Positions 4,079 through 44,925 of a stretch of 52,475 nucleotides of DNA are shown here, piece by piece; position 1 is the stretch's first letter; every line of letters starts with the position of its first letter. The position numbers and the translations under genes were made by a program. The notes under the pieces are model-generated. The model saw nothing but the letters and a program-made list of their open reading frames with translations. It searched no databases and had not been told where the DNA came from. The DNA lies in NCBI GenBank assembly GCA_902565595.1, contig CACFFD010000007.1:1-52475 (forward strand), given 5' to 3'. The stretch is from Actinomycetota bacterium (GTDB taxonomy: Bacteria > Actinomycetota > Acidimicrobiia > Acidimicrobiales > UBA8592).

Positions 4079-6076
4079 TTACTTCGTGTTTCTTTCCAAT
4101 GTCTTAAAATTCGCTTTTCTATGTCGGTCTCGGGCAATTTTCCCGGCTATTCCATCTGTATTTAGAATTGCTGTAAGTATTAATCCTACGCCACCTACTA
4201 AGTTGGCATACGTTGAAAGACTATCTCCTGAAAATGATTTAGCTATTAGACCTATCATCAGGCCCCCGGGTGCTAGAACGCCGGCTACAAGTGCCCCACT
4301 GACCGAACCGATACCCCCAAGGTAGGCAAACGCAAGAAGAGCTAAACTTTCAAAAACGCTAAAGGAGGTTCCACTAATTTGTCCTCTGAGGTATGCAAGC
4401 ATGGCACCCCCGAGGCCTGCCAAGAAGGAGGAGAATGCGAAGGCTTGAAGTTTCGTAAGTGCCCCATTTACTCCGCATGCTGCAGCTGCTCGCTCGTTTG
4501 CTCGAACGGAGAGAAATTGGCGTCCTGTTGTTGTTCTTCGAATATTCACTACAAGGAGACAGCAAAGTAGGGTGACAAAAAGAAGCATCAGTCCGTACTC
4601 CCACCTATTGAAGTCGGATCCAATGTTTGCTGCCAGATTTATTCCGAAGATGTCTGGAGGTTCGATAGGGAGAGCCCCAGTTTGGCCGACGAACCACCGG
4701 TTGTTAAACAAGAGGGTCCCAATTGCAACTCCTAAGGCCATTGTCACCGCTGCTAGTTGAAGCCCACGTATGCGGAGCGCAGGTATGCCAACCAGCAATC
4801 CTAGTAGTACTGCTCCGAGGGCCCCAAGAATAACTGGTATCGGGAATGGGATACCGGTCTCTAGTCCTACTTTCCCTAAGATAAATCCGGATACTCCTGC
4901 AAATACTGCTTGCGCTAGAGAAACTTGGCCTACGTATCCGGTTAAGACGACGATTGATAGAACGATGATAACTGAAGTCATTGATAGGTAGAGACTTAGA
5001 CGCAGGGCTCTTCCAAAGAAAAGGACGCCTAGGACAGTGGCAGTTGTGAGGATTATGGAACCTGGCAGAATATTTCTGGGGGCGGGAGCGAAAGCTAGGC
5101 GTGATGTCATGTGACTAGCTCGACTGGGCAACCGGTCACCTCGGAAAAATAGTATTACGATGATGAGAAAGAAAGGTAGAACATCTCGCATTCCGTTCCC
5201 GGCGAAATCTGGCCACCATGATTTCATTTGGAGGAGTGAGAGTTCAGATCGGAACATTCCTAGTGCCAGACAAGTTGCTGCTGTGACACCGAAGGAGCGT
5301 AATGATCCGACAAGGGCTCCAGCGAGTGCAGGTACAACCAGCAAAGTGTAATTTACGGTGTTTACGCCATTTGATAAGGAAGCTGCCAGAATTCCAAAGA
5401 CTGCTGCGACCATAGAAGCTAGCATCCAGTTTCCGGCTGCAAGCATGTCGGGAGAAAATCCGATGAGAGTGGCCCCCTTCTCCTCTTCAGAGGCTGCTCG
5501 TGTTGCAATGCCAAAGAGTGTAAAGCGGTAGATAGCAGCAAGAAAGAGCGCAGAGATGACCACTATGGCAGCGAGCCATAAGCGATCTTCGGGAATCCGA
5601 GTTCCGAAAATATTTACCATATCAGTCGGGAGGATGGCACGAACTGTTTCATTTTGGGTACCGAATCGAAGAAGAACCACCGATTGGAGTACAATAAAAA
5701 CACCTACCGTTGCGACGATTTTTGCAAGAAGTGGAGCTCCTCGTAAAGGTCGAAAAACTAGTAGGTGGACGAGAAGCCCTACTATCGCTGCAACGCCAAG
5801 GGCAATAAGAAATGCTGGCCAGAATGCTGTCAAGTCGCCACTAGCCGGTGTTCCAAGCAGATTAACTCGGTCCGTGCCAGAGATTGAGATCGGGAAAACA
5901 AGGTCCCCAGTGTCTCGAAGCTCGTCATAAATATAAGTTGAGTACATCATCATGGCACCATGAGCAAAGTTCACCACTCCAGATCCTTGGTATGCCAAAA
6001 CTAGGCCTAAAGCTACACCTGCTATTACGGCCCCATCGCCTAAGCCTGTAAGTAAAGTCTGGATGTAAATATCCAT
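4079..6076 (-). CDS. Fused LivH-LivM-type ABC transporter permease
   Basis: One 665-residue polypeptide holding both membrane subunits of a branched-chain-amino-acid-type importer. Residues about 1-310 match LivH (GSGVVNFAHGAMMM near the N-terminus; the cytoplasmic loop RAASEEEKGATLIG). Residues about 340-650 match LivM (GYVGQVSLAQAVFAGVSGF; EAA-type loop NERAAAACGVNGALTKLQAF; SGALVAG). Some 17-18 hydrophobic segments are visible. Fused permeases of this kind occur in actinobacteria. The binding lipoprotein follows 25 bp downstream. The partner ATPases (LivG/LivF type) are absent on both sides: upstream is a divergent carotenoid oxygenase. They must be encoded elsewhere or shared with another transporter. 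Confidence 0.93.
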   Translation of the reverse strand: MDIYIQTLLTGLGDGAVIAGVALGLVLAYQGSGVVNFAHGAMMMYSTYIYDELRDTGDLVFPISISGTDRVNLLGTPASGDLTAFWPAFLIALGVAAIVGLLVHLLVFRPLRGAPLLAKIVATVGVFIVLQSVVLLRFGTQNETVRAILPTDMVNIFGTRIPEDRLWLAAIVVISALFLAAIYRFTLFGIATRAASEEEKGATLIGFSPDMLAAGNWMLASMVAAVFGILAASLSNGVNTVNYTLLVVPALAGALVGSLRSFGVTAATCLALGMFRSELSLLQMKSWWPDFAGNGMRDVLPFFLIIVILFFRGDRLPSRASHMTSRLAFAPAPRNILPGSIILTTATVLGVLFFGRALRLSLYLSMTSVIIVLSIVVLTGYVGQVSLAQAVFAGVSGFILGKVGLETGIPFPIPVILGALGAVLLGLLVGIPALRIRGLQLAAVTMALGVAIGTLLFNNRWFVGQTGALPIEPPDIFGINLAANIGSDFNRWEYGLMLLFVTLLCCLLVVNIRRTTTGRQFLSVRANERAAAACGVNGALTKLQAFAFSSFLAGLGGAMLAYLRGQISGTSFSVFESLALLAFAYLGGIGSVSGALVAGVLAPGGLMIGLIAKSFSGDSLSTYANLVGGVGLILTAILNTDGIAGKIARDRHRKANFKTLERNTK

Positions 6077-34100: not shown

Positions 34101-34509
34101 CAAGCTCTTGATATTGCGGGAAATAGATTCTAGTGTCCTTAATTTCTGCTTTGGTCCCAGCAGCAAGAACATCAAGTTCTAATTTGCTATCAGATACGGA
34201 ATTGATTACTTGAACTTGACTTTCATCAGAGAGACGTGATGAGCAAATTGCAACAAGGTCAAATCTAGAAAAATTCTCATAACGAGCTAGTTCATCGAAT
34301 AGTTGAACATTCCTTCTTTTGCCACTCTCGAGCATAGAAGTACTTGTGGTAGACGACCCAACGGTTTGAACTATAAAGTTTGCTACCTCACCGTGCTCCG
34401 AGAGTTCCTGAATAACTCCTAAGCCGTTTTCGATAACGGGATCATCTTCAGAAAAAAAGACGATCGTTATTCTAGGCAAACCTTCTTTTGTTACTTGATT
34501 ATTTTTCAT
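31153..34509 (-). CDS. Large six-TM protein of the tubulin-like cassette
   Basis: An 1118-residue protein that I cannot assign to a named family. The first about 490 residues are soluble and open with a Rossmann-like strand pattern (ITIVFFSEDDP...FDLVAICSSRL), followed by helical, coiled-coil-like sequence. Five TM helices cluster at about 500-520, 535-554, 565-583, 593-613 and 628-646. An outside acidic region of about 110 residues precedes a sixth helix at 762-785. The C-terminal about 330 residues are again cytosolic. The start overlaps the tubulin-like stop by ATGA. It is the likely membrane dock for the tubulin-like GTPase, an inference from coupling and topology. Confidence 0.85.
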   Translation of the reverse strand: MKNNQVTKEGLPRITIVFFSEDDPVIENGLGVIQELSEHGEVANFIVQTVGSSTTSTSMLESGKRRNVQLFDELARYENFSRFDLVAICSSRLSDESQVQVINSVSDSKLELDVLAAGTKAEIKDTRIYFPQYQELGTPEKFLTENASARLVVLPTDKASDLAIAAPLYFQDPKTNDETKYHWHVATETLSICGLWKSQVGSALEEIQQPPTGASSQPFQLVRSFARTAQTSLEEIGSDKDSFFSENLTVPPSKIPAPNPFYVARHAAEIIHHKNFRLQPPESMETGKPVGGIDLIKQVIKRIWKDFLSLPSTIRYGIQSQLDSATAETAQQIIGEDSWVQVALEDGKATNEDLSNEKIQEAIDLLESQSEKLTNVSMYGSEWKQALEYSLGIVDGAEQVAELRQSAGNDRWVTVEVEALAPDFSDDLSVMAENLGIHVGSSTQGIKPASKESENLLSLVSKKFQDQAEEANRRLQTTMESLRALSRPESEDNEIASKTVRLLFISTFFLFLFVIAAFSPLQNIFETNWGMTEKVIALLIPTGLLLFPIALLFSPIDSKQRQNYVLFSTLLICALVILGSVFATELSQSLSQVVMPIVVTAVIVSAVLRIWVIHTEEEEDDKWHRLASKACIVMLPIYVLVASVFTLNTKSYEPSARSISNVTFEELEQDQIDDLGQLIKDQNGLATDDDGEDPLSLSENEKIAFDFLKKDKHIDESGRSRLFGNNTKPERLEAFGIEDTPHDRWTDLKDDLEGDYFDENRTWLWVSLPLLAVLFMTSGIILSVARQREENIFDDWRKRFIWLVQEAKVHSKERRLCDNYRVQWLGTALVLARLVHYPHGKSSSLDRSLTSNPRPIPATQKLRTISLRPTASGVEIFRETATDKISEPGWLTNQYYKMSSAFLRKETGFAGDQVQASTVLPEVCPYPVNLSEALGGEANGRRWPFCYEVYEGTFDDDLRLAVTEKLTEALLETYLEHPNSYEADGSSSGGSLGKLFGDLIPSDGQRWAPAIFGSEVAANFQGKSRNMTSNIWWPSDMIQASIEQEETWRNIAIATTSTTEESIFSQVIRVDISDVIKLSDLDGQKAGAVPVDRQQPSPNTPKGNGWNADSNEGKPGIG

Positions 34510-37500
34510 CCAATTGAATCCCCAGCGGCCTTCCCATGAGCTTCAGCAGCTCCAATCATCTGCTCCAAAGCATAGATAATCGAACTTGCGAGCCCGGGCC
34601 ATATGGGGCTCGGGGTCAGTGCGGCAGGATTTCCAGACACTGAAGCATGGTACTGTTGATACCGACTGGTGTATGCGTCTTTCCATTGCGTCAAGGCTAG
34701 AATCAGGTCAACTTTTCGATCCTGCTCTCCACTCTCTTGTAACCAAGGTTCGGCAACTAACTTCTCAGCTGGCGGGTATGTGCCTTCATCAACCCACTGA
34801 GCGAGTAGAGGCGACAATTTATTGTAGCTATATAAATCAAGTTGGCCATATGCTGTTCCGAGGTCCCGCAGTCTTATATAGGCAGCAAGGTGATCTAAGT
34901 TTGTATCAGTATTTACTCTCATATACGCAAGACCTAAAGACTCAAGAACTGATGGAAGTTCGTCAAAAGCTTCATAAACATCGTAAAGAAGAGGGAAGGG
35001 GAAGCTAGCATTTAGAAGTTCGCCTTCTCGTGAAATACTCAATTGCCCTCTATCGGGCATAATCTTCGATCTGCTTACAAGCCCCAAATATCTGGCAGTA
35101 ATCCATCCACGTATCATCGCTTGGATTGTTGACTGAGGGGCAGGAACGAATCGTTGCATAGTTCTGCTTCGACGACGCTGCCAAAAATCTTGCAAGGATC
35201 CTGTTTGAACTTCTTCGGTATACCTATCGTCAATAGGCCCCCAAAGAGACGAGACGACGATAGGTGAAAGAGGGGCCGAAGTGAAGGTCGTAATGTCAAT
35301 ATGGTCGGCGTTAGCGTCCATGTTGAACATTTCCCCCAAATCAGCTGAGCCAATACCCAAAGCCGAGAGTTGACCCTTGACATCTTCTCCGACAGCATGT
35401 TGATCTAAAGGAATTTCACTGAAAACTCTGACCTGGAGATTTCCCGCGACCGAATCGGGGTGAACCATATTTAAAACTCCAGTGTCTACATTGATCAACG
35501 GTGCAGCTGAATCAACAGCAGCAGTGAATTTCGCTAAGAACCGGGCTTTTCGTTCTTCTTTTTCAACTGGGCTCATCTCATCATCATCATCGCCAAGATA
35601 TGACCGGATACTTGTATCCAACATGCTTCCCATAGGCGAACCAGGAGTATTCAGCCAGTGGTGAGCTCTACGTAGCAAGGAGTTCTTATCAGTTTGGATG
35701 TCAACCATAAGCTTTTTAGGGGGAGAGTCACCGCCTGAATTGCTTGGGTTCCAGCCACCGGTGGTTTTGATCACCAACAATTCTCGAGTTTCAGCAAGAG
35801 ATACATCTTCCTGATCACGAATGTATTTACCGGAAAGAATAGCGTTCTGGACGCCATCTTTGATTTCAGATTCCATAATCTTGTTGGTCTGTTCCCCAAT
35901 AAGCTCCATAAATAATCTCGGGTACTCTTGAGGATCGATCAAGGTAAATTCACCAGCTGGCGGGAGCACAGACTCTGGAGGAGCTTCATCATTCCAAACA
36001 ACGAAAGATGCAATTGGCGGTGCTGTGTCGCGCGAGCCACCTATTGAATCCGCCCAATCCAATTCAGCCTGCTTATGGGCCGCAGCTAGGGCATTGTGTA
36101 ACGGGAGAAAAACTTTCTCTGCGAGTTGTTCACAAAGCTCAATCGCCTTTTCAGCTCCAAAAGCAGAACCAACATACTTAACATTGTTACAACTATCGGT
36201 AACCGCACTATGAAGCTGCTCGTTATCATTGCTGATCTTCCCTGGAAGGTCGGCAAGGTTCCTCACCCCATAATTGGATGCATTGTTACCGTCTGGCCCT
36301 TCAGCCCAATCCCACCAACGTTCATAATCAGACGTAAGATCATCTTTGTAGGCTTGCTGAAGCTCATGAGCCAATAATGAACATATTTTTGCCGCTACAA
36401 GAAGACCATAGAGGGAAAGATATTTCTCTGCTGAAACAATGATTGAATTTTCAATATCTCTAACCCATTCAGCGGATTTCGCCGCTAGAGCCGTGCGATA
36501 GTTTTCTTTGTACTCCTTCTTTGCAATATCGATCGCTTGACGTATTTCGATAATCCATTCACCTGCCAACTGGGGATCTTTATTATCTAAATCCAGTAGC
36601 CTCCTTACGGTTGTATCAAGATCTTGATTAAGCTCTGTGACATTGCTTGGGATGAGAGCATCTTGAATGTCGTTGTCCTTCGGCCCCAACTCGGCGAGGT
36701 TTGCCGAAACGATGAAACTATTCAGGTGTTCTCGGGCTATCAATTCAGCTACTTCATAGGGGTCTGTTACTCCATAGGCGTCTTTTACAGCTTTAGCGTC
36801 AATCGACGTATCATGGTAGTCCTTAAGGATGGAATGAGCATCACGAACGACACGTTGTGTCGCATACTCTTCAAAGTACTCTGTTCCGACCGACAGCCTG
36901 CCAAATCCAAGCCCTGCTATCGCTGGAGTTCCCTTTTCATTATCGCCTCCACGGTTTACAAGAAGGTCAATTGCGCTACTCTTTCCTGTAGCAGCCATGT
37001 GCCAGTTCGTGATCGTATATGCAAGAAATTTGTCTTCAACTGTGGGGCTGGTAAGCCATGAAAGCATAGACCTTCCGATCATTTCGAATAGTTTCGTCGG
37101 GGTTTCATAATCGATGCCCCCCGCCCCTTTTCTCCCAACCAGAAAAGGATAATTAGGTCCACTTCTGGTGATTTTTGAAGAAAGTCCTGCATTCTTTAAA
37201 ACGGCGTCATCAATGGGAGGCACCACTACATTCGCATCGCTTGCCTTGGGGTCCCCGTTCCACCAATACCCATTTAGGATCTCAGATAGAGCTGCAAGAG
37301 TGTTGGGTTGGACGCCCTTTGTCCCTTCCCCTCCTAAGGAGTGGAAAACCTCTGGCGTGTATAGAACACCAAAGATTTGATTACTGACTTGATTGTCGAG
37401 GCCTCGAATAATGTCGCAAACATCTTGCAGTAACCCTGCGCCGGTTCCTCCAGCCAGAGACGATACGATAATCACGTGCGTTTTAGCTGATCCTTCTGCA

Positions 37501-37991
37501 ATTTCGCCAGTAACTTGCTGATAAATCTCTTTAAGCTCTGACTCTACATTGGCCATTTCAAGGCTATTAAAAGCATCCCTTAGCTGATTCTTGATAACCG
37601 ATGCAGACCACATAGCCACCGTCCGGCCAATAGCGCGAAACTGTCCCGCCCCCTCTGAAAGGGAAAGAGGCATAGCCGCTGGAGCTATCCTCCAGCCTTC
37701 AAGTTCCGGATGAAGAGTTGTATTGCCATCAAGGTTAGTTTGGACATCGTTGAGCGTCAGCCCATGATCAATGAGGCCGAGATACTCGTCTTTAGAGAGT
37801 TGCGGAACTAAATAGTTGAGTTCGTTGCCATCTGGATTGGTGGGAGTATCAATGTGAAGGAACTGCCATCCCTGAGGCACTTTCTCTCCTTGCCCATTCC
37901 GTTTCATCCAACGTTTGATATCCCGCTTAAGGAAACGAAGGGTTTTCCCACCTGACCCGCCAAGACCCACAAACAAATATTTGTGATACAT
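34506..37991 (-). CDS. Tubulin/FtsZ-like GTPase (Tubulin_2-type) with large C-terminal extension
   Basis: An 1161-residue cytosolic protein. It begins with a Rossmann nucleotide-binding strand and loop (FVGLGGSGGKT, residues 7-17) and carries the tubulin/FtsZ signature as SSLAGGTGAGLLQD (177-190; canonical GGGTGSG), in the right order and spacing for the GTPase domain. The N-terminal about 450 residues therefore fit the tubulin-like fold described for bacterial FtsZ-like families distinct from true FtsZ. The remaining about 700 residues are unassigned, mostly helical. Its start has AGAGG 5 bases upstream. It lies between the VWA surface-protein gene and the 6-TM gene (ATGA overlap). It probably binds GTP and may form filaments at the membrane. 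Confidence 0.87.
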   Translation of the reverse strand: MYHKYLFVGLGGSGGKTLRFLKRDIKRWMKRNGQGEKVPQGWQFLHIDTPTNPDGNELNYLVPQLSKDEYLGLIDHGLTLNDVQTNLDGNTTLHPELEGWRIAPAAMPLSLSEGAGQFRAIGRTVAMWSASVIKNQLRDAFNSLEMANVESELKEIYQQVTGEIAEGSAKTHVIIVSSLAGGTGAGLLQDVCDIIRGLDNQVSNQIFGVLYTPEVFHSLGGEGTKGVQPNTLAALSEILNGYWWNGDPKASDANVVVPPIDDAVLKNAGLSSKITRSGPNYPFLVGRKGAGGIDYETPTKLFEMIGRSMLSWLTSPTVEDKFLAYTITNWHMAATGKSSAIDLLVNRGGDNEKGTPAIAGLGFGRLSVGTEYFEEYATQRVVRDAHSILKDYHDTSIDAKAVKDAYGVTDPYEVAELIAREHLNSFIVSANLAELGPKDNDIQDALIPSNVTELNQDLDTTVRRLLDLDNKDPQLAGEWIIEIRQAIDIAKKEYKENYRTALAAKSAEWVRDIENSIIVSAEKYLSLYGLLVAAKICSLLAHELQQAYKDDLTSDYERWWDWAEGPDGNNASNYGVRNLADLPGKISNDNEQLHSAVTDSCNNVKYVGSAFGAEKAIELCEQLAEKVFLPLHNALAAAHKQAELDWADSIGGSRDTAPPIASFVVWNDEAPPESVLPPAGEFTLIDPQEYPRLFMELIGEQTNKIMESEIKDGVQNAILSGKYIRDQEDVSLAETRELLVIKTTGGWNPSNSGGDSPPKKLMVDIQTDKNSLLRRAHHWLNTPGSPMGSMLDTSIRSYLGDDDDEMSPVEKEERKARFLAKFTAAVDSAAPLINVDTGVLNMVHPDSVAGNLQVRVFSEIPLDQHAVGEDVKGQLSALGIGSADLGEMFNMDANADHIDITTFTSAPLSPIVVSSLWGPIDDRYTEEVQTGSLQDFWQRRRSRTMQRFVPAPQSTIQAMIRGWITARYLGLVSRSKIMPDRGQLSISREGELLNASFPFPLLYDVYEAFDELPSVLESLGLAYMRVNTDTNLDHLAAYIRLRDLGTAYGQLDLYSYNKLSPLLAQWVDEGTYPPAEKLVAEPWLQESGEQDRKVDLILALTQWKDAYTSRYQQYHASVSGNPAALTPSPIWPGLASSIIYALEQMIGAAEAHGKAAGDSIG

Positions 37992-38140
37992 ATCGACCTC
38001 TATCTCTCAAGTATTTTTAGATGATTTCCTTACCCTTACTGGGTTTTAGAGCCAAACTACGTCCTCAGCCCTAGAGCTAAAAATAAATTTTAGGCCTAAG
38101 GACAAAGTCTTTCAAATTCGTCTTCCGTCGATTTCTATCG

Positions 38141-41100
38141 TCACCTTGTGGATGGCGGACCTCCTGTCGATGGCGGACCTCCTGTCGATGGCGGACCCCC
38201 TGTCGATGGCGGACCCCCTGTGGACGGCGGACCCCCTGTGGACGGCGTACCCCCAGCAGACGGCGGACCCCCAGCAGACGGCGGACCCCCAGCAGACGGC
38301 GGACTCGTGTCAGGAGTTTGGTCTGGTGCCACAACAGTGGCGTCATACTTTTCAGTCAGCTTAGAGACTAGCGATTGTGCCTCATCAAACATAGACCTGA
38401 TCTGCTCAGCTTCCGTTTGAGTTCCTCCTCCGGGGAGCACAAAGGTTACGGTAACTGGGGCATTCTCCTGAACGGCCTGTAGACCAACGATGATCATCGT
38501 CTTAAATATGATATTTGCACTCCCTGGATGTTTGCCCGTGGGTGAGGCGGTGAAAATCCACCCATCTCGCACGATTTGGGCCCAACCTCCCGCAGCTAAT
38601 TTCCGCGGCTGCCACCAAGACGCTGTTGTGGCATTTAGTGAAAGGGTTCCAAGCTGTAGCGTCTTTCCATTATTTGTAAGCTGAGGCCTGTGTAGGTCAT
38701 CTTTCGCGCTCGGGTTCCACAGTTCCAGTGCTGGGGCTGAAAGGTTGCCTCGTAGATCACGATGGTCAAGACCCGTGGCGATAGAGAAACTATGTTCAGC
38801 GTAGAAGAGGTTTGAAGTTGACCCGAATCTCGAAGCCCTCTTGAGGGCATATACCCAGATGAGGTATGCGAGTAGCGCACTCAAGAGACAGACAATGGGG
38901 CCAAGAATCCAAGCAAGAAGCTTATTGCTTCTTCCCACGTAATCTAAGTTTAATATGACCGTTTCCTCAGCTGGTATATCCAAACCCTCGATACTGGCTT
39001 GAAGAACGAAACTGAAACTATCGTTTATTTTCGCATCCTTAAATGACGTACTTCTCTTAATAAAGATTGTTTTGGATGATGTTTGATCGCCTATAGCGTC
39101 TTCTAGGACACAATCTACATTGCCTTCTAGCGAACATTGAAAAGAAATGTCCTCTCCTGAAATATTCTGGACTTCGGGAGTAATTTCCAAGATGACCTTC
39201 GCTCCAGGGAAACCAGTTAAGGTACACGACGTTTCATATGTTTCGGTGTCGCCTTTTGGAACTTCTGTTTCATTCCCGCCCATATCAATATTAGTTCCGC
39301 TACATTCAATCAGTTCATTTAAAGTGGTTGTAGCCACCTGTTCAAAATCGACTGTGCCACAGTACGCACGTGCCTCGCGCCTCTCCAACTGATCTTCTCG
39401 TTTTTCAGATGGGATTACACACAATTCTCCATCGAGCTCGCTGTCATACGGAGCGACAATAAGAACATCCTTAGATGGGCCTTCATCCTTTCCAAGCTCA
39501 AGACGTGGCTCATTAGAATCTTCGAACGTCCATATCCCCGTCTCTTCGCCATTCCATTCCAATTCGAAAACAGTGGAGTCTGCCTCATCGGAAGGCCCTA
39601 ATTTGCAAGCAACTTCGATACGAAAACCATCATCGAATGGCTTTATTGGGGTTTCCTCTTCACAGTCGATATTTATTTCCCCTTCCTGAAAAAGGGAGGT
39701 CGTTATCTGCACCAATGCTTCGGGCGACCCTGTATTCGGATCACCAGATTCACACGCCCCAAAAATATTCTCCCCATGCTCTGGTTCGAAACAAACTTTC
39801 AATGGGCGAAACTGATCTCCTTCAACAAGGTCTTCGACATTAAGATCAGAAAACTCCCATCTGTCGACATTACAGCTCGCCCGCTCACCGGTATTGAGGA
39901 CCATAGAAGTTCCGGAACAATTAAAGTCACTTTGGACTTGGAGGTCTACCTTCTCCGGCTTGAAAGAGTCGCCTCCCCGGGAAACACTGATTAGCAAGTC
40001 TCCTTCACTATCAAGCAAGTCCCCGTCTAACTCACCGAAGTTAGTAGCCAAATGAAAGCAATCTACGCTCGGTTCATCCCCCGCAAGAACGCTCACATCC
40101 AGCTCTAGTTTCCATCCTGACTCTAAGTCTTTAAGTCGATTTTGGTCCAAAGTTACCGACCCTTGACCACCTTCTTCAACAGGTTCAGAAACACTGTCAA
40201 TAGTGAATCCTGTAATCGAGGCAGAACCTCCGACAAAGATACTTAAGGTCTCAATATAGCGACCTGCAGGAAGCTTTTCAGTCTTGTATCTGGTGCCATT
40301 TGGATTCGCGCAATCAGGCCATCGAACTTGCGTCAATTCAAAAACTGGAATTAGTAGGGCATTCACAACCCCAGAAACGTCTTCAACAACAACGATCTCA
40401 CCGTTGTAATCATCACTTGTGTCACAACTTGCGGTCTCTAAGACAAACGAATCATCACTAGGCAATAAATCTAGATCTGATTTTTCAGGGTTTTCACCGG
40501 TAATAGCAAGGAGCATCTCGATACTTGCCTGAAGTTTTTTTTGGGTAGCTTCATCGTCCCTACCCTCTGTTTTTAACATGACCGCGACAGTAGTTATGCT
40601 CTCATCAATATTTAAAGACCTAGCAAGCCCTTCTGTACACGCTTCATCTCGGCCAGCTATTGCAAGGTCAGAAGTGCTATCGCCGTAATTTTCAATTACT
40701 CCATCCGTAAAGAACAGAAGAACCCGGCAATGCTCCTTATCGGGATCATCAGTTTCCTCTTGAAAAATAGTCTTTGCCTTTTCAAAAGCAAGACGATAGT
40801 TCGTCCCGTACTTCAATTCAGAATCGAGGTTAGTGGCTTGCTCGAAATCATTATTGGAAAGACTTTCAGTGGAAAATCCGCGGATTAGTTCTCCCGCTAT
40901 TTCCCCGAAGGATGCCAATGCGACGCGAATAGTGGAGCCCTCCGGTACCTTTTCCAATTCAGAGCGAATCTTTGTGAGCGCTTCACGCACTTTGAATTGC
41001 TTGTCGTCATATTGCATTGAAAGTGATTCATCAACCATGATAAGCAGATCAATGTCCTGACCGACTTCGCATAGTAAGTCATCATTCGAATCGCTCTCTT

Positions 41101-41224
41101 GGAGGGCGCTTGCCTCAGAAACAGCAAAAGGAAGAAAGCCCAAGAGCAGAGAAAAGACTACCCCGATTAAAAAGAGTAACTGCCATTCGATAATTTTGGA
41201 GCTGGGTTTTGTAAATACCTTCAC
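38141..41224 (-). CDS. VWA-domain surface protein with one TM helix and PPSTGG cytoplasmic tail
   Basis: A 1027-residue type I membrane protein. I use the GTG at 41224: GGAG lies 7 bases upstream and it overlaps the previous stop as GTGA; an ATG 21 bases earlier has no ribosome site. A signal peptide spans about 13-40, ending SEASA. The VWA domain has a full adhesion site (DESLS 65-69, GTNYR near 140, FTDG near 173). Several beta-rich, cysteine-containing domains follow (about 18 Cys in the ectodomain), then one TM helix at about 769-794, a cytoplasmic domain of about 170 residues, and nine PPSTGG-type hexapeptides at the end. Probably an adhesin or sensor tied to the tubulin-like GTPase. Confidence 0.88.
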   Translation of the reverse strand: MKVFTKPSSKIIEWQLLFLIGVVFSLLLGFLPFAVSEASALQESDSNDDLLCEVGQDIDLLIMVDESLSMQYDDKQFKVREALTKIRSELEKVPEGSTIRVALASFGEIAGELIRGFSTESLSNNDFEQATNLDSELKYGTNYRLAFEKAKTIFQEETDDPDKEHCRVLLFFTDGVIENYGDSTSDLAIAGRDEACTEGLARSLNIDESITTVAVMLKTEGRDDEATQKKLQASIEMLLAITGENPEKSDLDLLPSDDSFVLETASCDTSDDYNGEIVVVEDVSGVVNALLIPVFELTQVRWPDCANPNGTRYKTEKLPAGRYIETLSIFVGGSASITGFTIDSVSEPVEEGGQGSVTLDQNRLKDLESGWKLELDVSVLAGDEPSVDCFHLATNFGELDGDLLDSEGDLLISVSRGGDSFKPEKVDLQVQSDFNCSGTSMVLNTGERASCNVDRWEFSDLNVEDLVEGDQFRPLKVCFEPEHGENIFGACESGDPNTGSPEALVQITTSLFQEGEINIDCEEETPIKPFDDGFRIEVACKLGPSDEADSTVFELEWNGEETGIWTFEDSNEPRLELGKDEGPSKDVLIVAPYDSELDGELCVIPSEKREDQLERREARAYCGTVDFEQVATTTLNELIECSGTNIDMGGNETEVPKGDTETYETSCTLTGFPGAKVILEITPEVQNISGEDISFQCSLEGNVDCVLEDAIGDQTSSKTIFIKRSTSFKDAKINDSFSFVLQASIEGLDIPAEETVILNLDYVGRSNKLLAWILGPIVCLLSALLAYLIWVYALKRASRFGSTSNLFYAEHSFSIATGLDHRDLRGNLSAPALELWNPSAKDDLHRPQLTNNGKTLQLGTLSLNATTASWWQPRKLAAGGWAQIVRDGWIFTASPTGKHPGSANIIFKTMIIVGLQAVQENAPVTVTFVLPGGGTQTEAEQIRSMFDEAQSLVSKLTEKYDATVVAPDQTPDTSPPSAGGPPSAGGPPSAGGTPSTGGPPSTGGPPSTGGPPSTGGPPSTGGPPSTR
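38147..38308 (-). repeat. Nine in-frame 18-bp tandem repeats (PPSTGG/PPSAGG)
   Basis: Nine consecutive 18-bp units with third-base and a few second-position differences. Three units nearest the domain read PPSAGG, the rest PPSTGG, with one TPSTGG. They form the extreme C-terminus of the VWA surface protein, on the side predicted to be cytoplasmic. Near identity of neighbouring copies suggests recent slippage expansion. There are no spacers, so it is not a CRISPR array. Confidence 0.93.
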
Positions 41225-41550
41225 CGCGTCAACTCCATCACCCATTTCACTGCATGCCAAACACCCATAAGCCAGCCCGCAATAGCTACCATCCGTGCCA
41301 AAACGCGACCTGAGATAAGAGACCACTCATACGATTGCCGACTTGCCCGCCGGCGAAAATCTACATACTCGTATCTTGCTAGAACTACGACCCCGAGAAA
41401 TCCTCCTGAAATGAACCCACAAAAGTTTTGATCAAATTTTATGGAACCAGATGGCCCAAAACTTACGAAAAGAAAAATACACGTTAGAAGAGAGAGCGAA
41501 AAGACGAGAAGCAGCCACGAAATAGGCGGCCCCTTCAATTTCGATGCCAT
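41221..41550 (-). CDS. Small three-TM membrane protein, first gene of the tubulin-like cassette
   Basis: A 109-residue protein. I start it at MASKLKGPP because GGGGG lies 6 bases upstream; an ATG 15 bases earlier has none. Hydrophobic segments lie at about 10-31, 43-63 and 84-104, the last amphipathic with Trp and Lys. A basic loop (YVDFRRRASRQSYEW) separates the second and third. Its stop overlaps the GTG start of the VWA surface protein, so the two are co-translated. No family recognised. Inferred role: membrane partner or assembly factor of the surface protein. Confidence 0.75.
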   Translation of the reverse strand: MASKLKGPPISWLLLVFSLSLLTCIFLFVSFGPSGSIKFDQNFCGFISGGFLGVVVLARYEYVDFRRRASRQSYEWSLISGRVLARMVAIAGWLMGVWHAVKWVMELTR

Positions 41551-41585
41551 GCTAACCCCCGTCATCTAATGCAGCAATACCAAGA

Positions 41586-41614: not shown

Positions 41615-41713
41615 ATCCTCCCTCATGGGAAGTTAATAGAAGTCCTCCAACCGCCGTCAACTAAGACATCGAATTCATCTATTCAACCTTGCATTAGGTG
41701 GTATGCTCTATTT

Positions 41714-41800
41714 ATGGCAGAAACCGAATGCACTTGTGGGTCTTCATGCGACTGCACCGCTGAATCAAATTGCGGATGCAGGTGCTGGGCCAACGAATAG
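41714..41800 (+). CDS. Metallothionein-like cysteine-rich micro-protein
   Basis: A 28-residue open frame with seven cysteines in CxC groups: Cys6-x-Cys8, Cys12-x-Cys14 and Cys20-x-Cys22-x-Cys24, with no hydrophobic segment. The pattern ECTCGSSCDC is typical of short metallothioneins, which bind Cu(I), Zn(II) or Cd(II) through thiolate clusters in the cytosol. AGGTGG lies 12 bases before the ATG, slightly far; a TATGCT in between could be a -10 for a nearly leaderless message. It sits between the divergent cassette and the convergent thioredoxin gene. So high a cysteine density in a clean frame is unlikely by chance, but expression is unproven. Confidence 0.68.
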   Translation: MAETECTCGSSCDCTAESNCGCRCWANE

Positions 41801-41831: not shown

Positions 41832-42611
41832 TCACGCTAATTGGGGTGCGAGCGTTCCCGCCAAATACACGAGATATGCAAACTGCTCTTCTGTGAGTTC
41901 TCCGCTGCTTCTATGAACGACAGTCCCTTCGCCATCGACGAGAACCCAGAAAGGAAAGCCAGTCAAGCCATACGCTGCAGCTATCGCTTTATCGGAGCTG
42001 TCTACAAGTACTTGTGTTGGCCATTTTTCTGCTTCAAACCATTCAGATGGCGGGTAGTTCGGTGTTCCTTCACGAACTGAGGTTGAGATAGCTACTACCT
42101 CAACACCATTGGGAAGACTATTCTCATTCAGCCATTGGGCTACTCTCGGAACTTCGCGTTGGCAATGTGGACACCAGTGGGCAAAAAACCCGATAAGGCG
42201 TACCGTCCCATCGGCTGGCATGATTTCGATCATTTCCGAGCTGGTATTGGGTTGGGCTCTAAATCCTGGCGCTGCATGTCCGACACTCTCGTCAGGGGGG
42301 AGCGCTTCTCCAATAATTTCGACAGTTCCAGTTTCAAAACGCTCTTGAATCGTATTACTTGGCGTACTTATGGGTTCTTCCGTCTGGCTGTTATCTTCGC
42401 TTGGAATGGCTGTGGGTTCGGCTTCGGTCTCATTAGGTACGGAAGGAAAAGGAATAGCTGTATCGTTGCTACTATTCCCGCCGGCTAAAAGTATTCCTAG
42501 AAGGACAGCACCACCTATTAGAACGAAAAGGAAACCGTATAGTATCTTTTTCTGCTTCGCTGGCTCCTGTTGTTCCATGGGCTCAGGTATTGGAGGTCCT
42601 AGATCTACCAT
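41832..42611 (-). CDS. Membrane-anchored thioredoxin-fold protein (TlpA/DsbA-like, CPHC)
   Basis: A 259-residue protein: short Pro-rich cytosolic tail, one TM helix at about 23-43, a Pro/Glu/Thr-rich linker, then an extracytoplasmic thioredoxin domain of the TlpA/ResA type. The active site is WCPHC (Cys147, Cys150). CPHC is the DsbA dipeptide and favours oxidation, whereas TlpA-type reductants usually have CxPC variants. The cis-proline loop is GFPFWV. It lies 4 bp after the DsbB-like gene, so the two form an operon and probably an oxidative folding pair. Confidence 0.9.
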   Translation of the reverse strand: MVDLGPPIPEPMEQQEPAKQKKILYGFLFVLIGGAVLLGILLAGGNSSNDTAIPFPSVPNETEAEPTAIPSEDNSQTEEPISTPSNTIQERFETGTVEIIGEALPPDESVGHAAPGFRAQPNTSSEMIEIMPADGTVRLIGFFAHWCPHCQREVPRVAQWLNENSLPNGVEVVAISTSVREGTPNYPPSEWFEAEKWPTQVLVDSSDKAIAAAYGLTGFPFWVLVDGEGTVVHRSSGELTEEQFAYLVYLAGTLAPQLA

Positions 42612-42615
42612 ATTG

Positions 42616-43125
42616 CTACTCTTTCCATGGTCGTGGAGCTGCTAGCAATAGGATACCGATGAGTACGAAGCTTCCCAGCGCTAGCATCGGAATACTCGCA
42701 AAACCGAAAACCTCTATCCACCTGTAGGTACAAGAAGCATCAAGCGAGCATGAGGAACCTTGGCTAGGAAAGGCTTGAAGTTGATAATGATAAATCGATA
42801 TGCCAACTCCTACAGCCGACAACACTAGGCCATACGGAATGATTCTTCTATCCTGCCGGAATGTTGCCATCGGGAGGATAACTGCCAAGGGGTACATGGC
42901 AATGCGCTGATACCAGCACCAATCGCAAGGGAGGAAACCGCGCATTTCTGAGAAATAGAGGCTTCCTAGGGTTGCTCCGACAGCAACGATGGAAGCTAGA
43001 AACATGGTTATTTTTCTGAATTCTTGGCGGAATTGCGCTCCGGAGAACTTTAGGACACAAAGCGTTGAGATTAGGCCAGCCCCGATGAGAAGCGTGAAGA
43101 TTATTTCGGGTGCTTTCTGCTCCAT
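42616..43125 (-). CDS. DsbB/BdbC-family disulfide oxidoreductase
   Basis: A 169-residue membrane protein with four to five TM helices that passes electrons from a thiol oxidase to quinone. The first redox pair is Cys67-x2-Cys70 (PCDWCWYQR, the DsbB/BdbC hallmark, with the Arg that stabilises quinone). The second is Cys126 and Cys132 (SSCSLDASC) in an outside loop. The downstream thioredoxin-fold gene, 4 bp away, is the natural partner. Together they would introduce disulfides into exported proteins. Confidence 0.92.
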   Translation of the reverse strand: MEQKAPEIIFTLLIGAGLISTLCVLKFSGAQFRQEFRKITMFLASIVAVGATLGSLYFSEMRGFLPCDWCWYQRIAMYPLAVILPMATFRQDRRIIPYGLVLSAVGVGISIYHYQLQAFPSQGSSCSLDASCTYRWIEVFGFASIPMLALGSFVLIGILLLAAPRPWKE

Positions 43126-43184: not shown

Positions 43185-44768
43185 TTATCCGACTGCTTCT
43201 ACGACCCGTTCCAACGTCCAGTCGGGGTATTCATCGATCGTTCTCGCAAGTCTTCCAGTTGAATCGAAGAGGGCAAATAGTGTTCCATCAAGCGATCCTA
43301 GGACTCGTGTACCTCGTAGATCACGTATTTTTTCTGCTGTGTCGGCATCTGTTTTTCTCGCGACGGCCCATGCTGTCGGTGTCATTTCCACAACTGCGCC
43401 GAATTCATGCTCAAGCCGGTGTGCGAACACTTCAAACTGCATTTGTCCAACAGCGCCAAGAACTGGAGTGGCGGTAGGGGCATCTAGGTCACGTAGAACT
43501 TGGACAACGCCCTCTTCGTCCAACTGGCTGAGGCCCTTGCGGAATTGTTTCGTTTTTGAGATATCGGCTGGGCGGGCGTTCCAGAAAAGTTCAGGTTCAA
43601 ATCTCGGGATAGGAGGAAACGCTACTTTTTCACCTACGTAGAGTGTGTCTCCGATACGTAGGTCGCTGGCATTTACAAGGCCGAGGACGTCACCGGGGTA
43701 TCCATCCTCGGCGGTTCCTCGGTCAGCTCCGAACATCGACGTGGCGAATTTTGTGCTGAACGTCTTGTTGAGGCGCTCGTGCGTGACTTGCATCCCTCGC
43801 TCAAAATACCCAGAATTGATCCGCATGAAGGCTACACGGTCGCGGTGAGATGGGTCCATGTTTGCTTGCACTTTGAAAATAAATGCAGAGAATGGTTCAT
43901 GGACGTCTCGGGTTCCCCCATCTTGGGTTTCACGGGGACCGGGGTTTGGGGCAAGATCTATTACCGCGTCAAGCAGGTGTCGCACGCCGAAGTTCGTTAA
44001 TGCCGAACCAACGAATAATGGGCTCGTCCGTCCTGAGAGAAAGCCTTCATCGGTGTGGGTTGCGTCAATCCCATCGAAGAGGGCTACTTCTTCTTGGGCC
44101 TGTGTCCACATTTCGCCTTCTTGAGCCTTTGCGTCTTCGGAGGAGACAATCTCCTCAGGTGCTATGGTCGCTCCGTGGCTTGTTCGGGAGAACCGGACAA
44201 ATTCATGTGTTCTTCGGTCGATAACGCCTCGAAAGTCTCCGCCGGGTCCAACTGGCCACGTGATGGGGGTAGTTTGCACCCCGATTGACTGTTCTATTTG
44301 GTCCATTAAGGCCAGAGGGTCAAGGCTTGGCCGGTCCCACTTGTTGATAAAGGTGAGAATAGGCATATTTCTTGCTTTACAGACTTCAAATAGCTTCAGC
44401 GTCTGCGCTTCGATACCTTTTGCAGCATCCAAAACCATAACGGCTGCATCGACTGCGGCGAGGACGCGATAAGTGTCTTCCGAGAAATCCCTGTGGCCGG
44501 GCGTATCGAGAAGATTGATGACATGGTCTCGATAGGAGAATTGCAGAACTGTAGAAGCTATGGAAATGCCCCTATCCTGTTCCATAGCCATCCAGTCGGA
44601 GCGGGCAGCACGTGTGCTTTTTCTTGATTTCACTGTTCCTGCTTCGGCTACTTGACCTGAGTACAAGAGGAACTTCTCGGTCAATGTTGTCTTCCCCGCA
44701 TCGGGGTGGCTGATGATCGCAAACGTGCGTCGTTTTTTCGTTTGTTCTTGAATGTGTTCTTCAGCCAT
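43185..44768 (-). CDS. prfC: Peptide chain release factor 3
   Basis: Translational GTPase that recycles RF1/RF2 from the ribosome. I start it at MAEEHIQEQTKKRRTF (527 residues, normal for RF3); the longer frame adds 20 unconserved residues. G1 HPDAGKTT is at 21-28, the switch-I region (DRGISIAST) follows, then G3 DTPGHRDFSEDTY and G4 NKWDRP, and the C-terminal RF3 domain (VLGAVGQMQFEVFAHRLEHEFGA). The Shine-Dalgarno is weak. It is divergent from an acyl-CoA dehydrogenase and 59 bp from dsbB, with no functional link to either. Confidence 0.96.
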   Translation of the reverse strand: MAEEHIQEQTKKRRTFAIISHPDAGKTTLTEKFLLYSGQVAEAGTVKSRKSTRAARSDWMAMEQDRGISIASTVLQFSYRDHVINLLDTPGHRDFSEDTYRVLAAVDAAVMVLDAAKGIEAQTLKLFEVCKARNMPILTFINKWDRPSLDPLALMDQIEQSIGVQTTPITWPVGPGGDFRGVIDRRTHEFVRFSRTSHGATIAPEEIVSSEDAKAQEGEMWTQAQEEVALFDGIDATHTDEGFLSGRTSPLFVGSALTNFGVRHLLDAVIDLAPNPGPRETQDGGTRDVHEPFSAFIFKVQANMDPSHRDRVAFMRINSGYFERGMQVTHERLNKTFSTKFATSMFGADRGTAEDGYPGDVLGLVNASDLRIGDTLYVGEKVAFPPIPRFEPELFWNARPADISKTKQFRKGLSQLDEEGVVQVLRDLDAPTATPVLGAVGQMQFEVFAHRLEHEFGAVVEMTPTAWAVARKTDADTAEKIRDLRGTRVLGSLDGTLFALFDSTGRLARTIDEYPDWTLERVVEAVG

Positions 44769-44925
44769 TGGTCTGCTTTCTAGGCGACTTTCAGCGTAGA
44801 CGGCTATCGTCGGGATCGGGCGGAACAAAGCTAATGGAGCCTATTATTTTGGATTACCGTTTCAACTGATTTGCGTGTTAGCGTCACCTATAGATTTGGC
44901 GGAACCTGGATAAAGAGGTATTTAA

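Follow-up and report, generated by a model that had tools for sequence, protein, structure and literature searches.

Metallothioneins are recognised, in broad terms, as short proteins that combine a high content of cysteine with CxC motifs and hold several soft metal ions in thiolate clusters; they are typically without aromatic residues, a tendency rather than a strict rule. The absence of aromatics has been used as a criterion for a fungal candidate metallothionein (PMC4755600), and the non-yeast copper metallothioneins of fungi contain seven cysteines in 26 residues, ordered as X2-[CXC]-X5-[CXC]-X3-[CXC]-X2-C-X3 (PMC4755600). Among bacteria, the SmtA/BmtA/PmtA type (Pfam family PF02069) combines a zinc-finger fold with histidine ligands (PMC10612145), and mycobacteria possess MymT, a Cu(I) metallothionein of 4.9 kDa (PMC7558416). 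We have compared these systems with a much smaller gene, located at 41714..41800 on the plus strand of a 52,475-nucleotide stretch of DNA (hereafter the window) that derives from an incomplete actinobacterial MAG (1.46 Mb, 63% complete).

The product of this gene has 28 residues, MAETECTCGSSCDCTAESNCGCRCWANE, seven of which are cysteines (25%), and ends at a TAG stop codon; its translation bears out the frame from ATG to TAG with CxC, CxC and CxCxC groups that an earlier note on this DNA had reported. The same note placed the ORF in an otherwise empty divergent gap, a description to be corrected as regards the word divergent, since both flanking genes lie on the minus strand: on the left a gene for a 114-aa membrane-type protein of unknown family (41221..41565), from which the ORF diverges, and on the right the gene for a TlpA/AhpC-TSA-like thioredoxin-fold protein (41832..42611), with which it converges at a distance of 31 nt. 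Among the window's ORFs of 20-45 aa it is the only one with six or more cysteines. Markov-1 simulated windows with the same dinucleotide make-up have a mean of 0.05 ORFs of 20-45 aa with at least seven cysteines, and the CxC..CxC..CxCxC spacing appeared in none of 200 such windows.

The fungal copper metallothioneins of Neurospora crassa and Agaricus bisporus (family 8 of Binz and Kagi) are closely comparable in size, number of cysteines and presence of CxC pairs. However, the order of the cysteines differs, being [CxC]-x3-[CxC]-x5-[CxC]-x-C here, there is no sequence match, and the present proteins, found in bacteria and phages rather than fungi, contain invariant Trp, Glu and Asn residues unlike those of family 8. 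SmtA-type proteins are likewise small, cysteine-rich and bacterial, with CxC motifs, but they are longer (51 positions in the Pfam model); MymT is also a small actinobacterial protein that was long overlooked as unannotated, yet it is larger by mass. Profile searches of Pfam, NCBIfam, PHROGs and PDB sequences returned no match to the 20-residue core CTCGSSCDCTAESNCGCRCW (41729..41788, plus strand); the small gene belongs to no metallothionein family catalogued in these libraries. In particular, the window peptide has no match to PF02069 at E values up to 10 and none in Pfam or NCBIfam, hence none to MymT via these family libraries. PF02069 does not exceed its cut-off in any of 248 genomes of the order, the genus genomes searched included, and the copper regulator family CsoR (PF02583) was not found in 18 genomes of the genus. 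Phage-encoded metallothioneins may already be on record; a literature search, conducted mostly outside subscription papers, found neither a phage metallothionein nor a bacterial one of 28 residues.

With the 28 residues as query, clear homologues were found in seven same-genus genomes among 99 related genomes (E 7e-10 to 3e-4); the values become 1e-12 to 4e-17 with a profile that includes the members from these seven genomes themselves. The resulting eight chromosomal proteins have 28-32 residues, with the core beginning 5-9 residues from the N-terminus and aligned without gaps, and all eight retain the seven cysteines together with T, A, E, N, G and W; three forms (G002, G006 and G007) have an additional cysteine. 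Nucleotide comparison of the 20-codon core gave pS 0.68, pN 0.069 and pN/pS 0.10 for the window's genome (G000) with G012, G015 and G005, and pS 0.85, pN 0.014 and pN/pS 0.016 for G002, G006 and G007, so high a pS (0.68-0.85) indicating that silent sites are near saturation. To judge from these substitutions, purifying selection is preserving the peptide sequence of the small gene rather than its DNA. The earlier note had proposed conservation of frame and cysteines in close relatives as the test of its reading, and the outcome is clear: all eight assembled loci are intact, with pN/pS not above 0.10 within subclades. We thus regard it as nearly certain that the ORF is a real gene. Beyond the genus, the window's own copy was the sole match at E <=0.001 both in 396 wider Actinomycetota genomes and in 395 genomes of the class, and no copy was found in genus genome G004. 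Matches of the 28-residue query in three further genus genomes (G001, G009 and G013) were rejected as reading frames outside the family, and weak order-wide matches (E 0.0009-0.05) were not accepted, the loci checked for the motif not having the cysteine spacing.

The metallothionein-like character claimed at first reading fits both the composition and the CxC/CxCxC arrangement, and a cysteine content of one quarter in a peptide with no evident signal sequence conforms to the anatomy of a metallothionein. On the whole we consider it probable that the small ORF functions as a gene whose product is a mini-metallothionein of the cytosol, which would buffer a soft metal. The peptide would fold only around metal, its seven cysteines enclosing a small thiolate cluster of Cu(I) or Zn(II) against which, at the C-terminal CxCxC, the invariant Trp might pack; by buffering or sequestering the metal, it could protect iron-sulfur and thiol proteins of the cytosol. 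The identity of the metal is a guess, with Cu(I) our first choice and Zn(II) the second. None of the genes immediately adjoining was recognised as encoding a metal transporter or regulator, which, together with the failure to find CsoR in the 18 genus genomes, renders the link to copper circumstantial. In favour of the mini-metallothionein reading we count the conservation in eight of eight chromosomes, the low pN/pS, the profile E values, the phage ORFs and the TANNNT hexamers described below, the lack of a PF02069 match above cut-off in 248 genomes of the order, the analogy in size and cysteine number with fungal copper thioneins, and the presence of genes for iron-sulfur proteins on some phage contigs (the ferredoxin beside the gene in contig L066, and WhiB). 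Against it we count the invariant Trp, an aromatic residue unusual for a metallothionein, and the lack of a recognisable -35 element or operator.

If metal is indeed bound, these peptides would rank with the shortest metallothioneins on record, would provide a metallothionein to a lineage in which no PF02069 member or CsoR was found, and would represent a case of metallothionein common to bacteria and phages. The conservation of the small gene, with its occurrence in viruses that probably infect such bacteria, suggests a family of miniature metal-binding proteins that has so far escaped recognition. A gene of 28 codons is easily missed by the usual gene callers and standard annotation; this, with its absence from all family libraries searched, implies that the way in which streamlined marine actinobacteria deal with metals, and an auxiliary function of phages, may have been overlooked. 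(The host is an uncultured member of Acidimicrobiia, whose marine origin we infer from the isolate names of its relatives.)

In the viral sequences of IMG/VR, twelve contigs encode either the core or a closely related sequence. A profile built exclusively with chromosomal members retrieved 11 different ORFs of viruses with E values between 4e-10 and 3e-5, the next match lying at 0.39, in a search set of 29,602 ORFs that contained many cysteine-rich chance frames as decoys. Chromosomes and viruses have in common the signature C-x-C-x3-C-x-C-[TI]-x-E-x-N-C-G-C-x-C-W, which is without gaps in most phage members too; its final Trp, fixed in all eight chromosomes, is nearly invariant in the phages. 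The short forms of the family span 23-32 residues, as exemplified by the viral sequences MSCECGCPPDCGCTKESNCGCNCWEKVNE (29 aa) and MSDCDCPCGPNCECTEEENCGCK (23 aa, without the CxCW end); some phage forms are longer, about 46-66 residues, with the core as their C-terminal part after an N-terminal extension, and one contig (3300031774_000064, or L066) has two different copies. A tblastn search of annotated phage and plasmid collections found no match. A generic pattern of cysteine spacing was also applied to IMG/VR, and among the matches listed most were repeat-derived translations and none had the full E/N/G signature, a result that sharpened the definition of the family. A longer outlier in contig L074 (IMGVR_UViG_3300037070_001164, 4900-5350) has an N-terminal hydrophobic stretch resembling a signal peptide, followed by CSCGKDCKCTAESNCGC without the CxCW end, and is possibly an exported relative.

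In several viral contigs the stop codon of the preceding gene overlaps the ATG (TGATG or TAATG), suggesting translational coupling to the upstream gene. WhiB genes, which are known from Actinobacteria and their phages (PMC8612146), are present in seven of the 11 viral contigs examined. In L066 (1421-1750; IMGVR_UViG_3300031774_000064) a ferredoxin gene (Fer4_15) directly precedes the mini-metallothionein ORF with a TGATG overlap, and a ferredoxin gene stands before the ORF in the same manner, overlap included, in L067, L078 and L089. Compared with 60 genomes, the L066 ferredoxin is closest to one encoded by the genome of the window itself (G000:C35; 68% identity, E 1.1e-36); the next best matches come from three further genomes in which the small gene is present. 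The frequency of WhiB and this ferredoxin affinity indicate that the phages probably infect Actinobacteria and possibly the genus of the window; the 20-residue core is too short for a tree. In L071 (4231-4932) and L079 (378-1037), the phage gene is directly preceded by transglycosylase-like genes that end in '...HWYPSR(S/R)CW..' and in which no Pfam family was recognised. The core found in actinophages would belong to an auxiliary gene whose translation is coupled to that of the genes before it. The broader proposal, namely an undescribed family of ultra-short metallothioneins common to marine Acidimicrobiia and actinophages, employed by the latter to control the metal or iron-sulfur status of the infected cell, is one we advance tentatively, as somewhat less than an even chance.

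The viral forms are also relevant to a different interpretation, in which the product would be a structural or adaptor microprotein: its cysteines would bind one or two zinc ions or an iron-sulfur cluster, the metal being structural, and its Trp would dock on a partner such as RNA polymerase or a WhiB-type protein. A defined fold or interface is suggested by the invariance of E, N, G and W besides the cysteines, and the placement of the core at the C-terminus of the longer phage peptides, as well as the WhiB and ferredoxin genes of the phages, would suit such a role. However, the sequences have no CxxC arrangement of the zinc-ribbon or knuckle kind, seven cysteines within 19 residues exceed the needs of one structural site, and no partner gene common to chromosomes and phages was present in the loci read. 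We therefore consider a structural role unlikely.

The expression signals of the chromosomal gene bring in a second alternative. Six nucleotides before the ATG lies TATGCT (41702..41707, plus strand), a -10-like TANNNT hexamer, and such a hexamer occurs 6-7 nt upstream of the ATG in all eight chromosomal copies, which are relatives and not independent samples, whereas some 1.5-3.5% of ATGs have one so placed when those of these loci and of the window are counted together. No obvious Shine-Dalgarno sequence precedes any of the eight start codons. The combination of these features leads us to predict that the gene is expressed from a leaderless mRNA starting at the ATG; the spacing of TANNNT is as expected for the leaderless transcripts of mycobacteria, in which the start codon coincides with the +1 of the mRNA (PMC4633059). 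The bacterial copy would have its own promoter. In the window no recognisable -35 element or operator was found and, on the strand of the gene, no sigma-70 -35/-10 pair; no terminator hairpin was found 3' of the gene on the plus strand, and an Rfam search of the window gave no match.

Cysteine-rich leaderless sORFs functioning as attenuators have been described in mycobacteria (PMC4633059; PMC9094748, citing Canestrari et al. 2020), and they resemble the present gene in being very short, actinobacterial and, by our prediction, leaderless. A cysteine-responsive regulatory sORF of this type would depend on the speed of the ribosome over the Cys codons and not on the peptide. The mycobacterial polycysteine sORFs, however, sit upstream of co-directional genes that they regulate, whereas the next gene here, TlpA, is convergent, on the opposite strand in all eight assembled loci with 22-39 nt between the two stop codons. 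The absence of a co-directional gene before TlpA, and the fact that the non-cysteine residues E, N, G and W are as firmly fixed as the cysteines, make attenuation very unlikely; moreover, the phage copies occur in quite different contexts.

Scarcely more can be said for a RiPP precursor, for instance one whose product is lanthipeptide-like or binds copper. The shortness of the peptide and its conserved core, C-terminal and rich in Cys, Thr and Ser, could recall such precursors, but the chromosomal forms have no leader peptide, the core starting so near the N-terminus, no modification or export enzyme was recognised beside the gene, and the MNIO/DUF692-type enzyme (PF05114) is found in none of the 18 genus genomes, several of which are incomplete, with control genomes positive. 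We judge this origin highly improbable.

Returning to the putative mini-metallothionein gene, its genomic surroundings are conserved on one side. Wherever the contig extends far enough, the TlpA-like gene is followed by dsbB (a DsbB-family protein, 42616..43125, minus strand in the window) and then by prfC, encoding peptide chain release factor 3 (43185..44828, minus strand). TlpA orthologues are present in nine of the 18 genus genomes, and the small gene accompanies them in every genome in which the site is readable; in the ninth, G014, the contig stops at the end of TlpA and the site of the small gene is not assembled. This strict synteny with TlpA, and with DsbB where visible, could be taken to mean that the adjacent pair has the peptide as a partner or substrate in thiol-redox reactions, but there is hardly any probability in this, the peptide having no evident signal sequence while TlpA and DsbB normally act outside the membrane, the convergent neighbours sharing no promoter, and neither TlpA nor DsbB having been seen beside it in those phage loci that were read.

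Close prfC orthologues are confined to the same nine genus genomes as TlpA, neither being detected in the other nine (several of the 18 are incomplete), and this co-occurrence suggests two clades within the genus. On the opposite flank, relatives carry acyl-CoA dehydrogenase genes pointing toward the small gene. Relatives sharing the TlpA side but differing upstream, the small gene travels with TlpA, DsbB and release factor 3 rather than with its upstream neighbour. In the window, the place of the acyl-CoA dehydrogenase genes is taken by minus-strand genes spanning 34506-41565, which encode a Tubulin_2 protein (PF13809), a VWA protein whose tail is a long repeat rich in Pro and Gly, and the 114-aa membrane-type protein mentioned above; this left flank is specific to the window's genome and looks like a genome-specific island.
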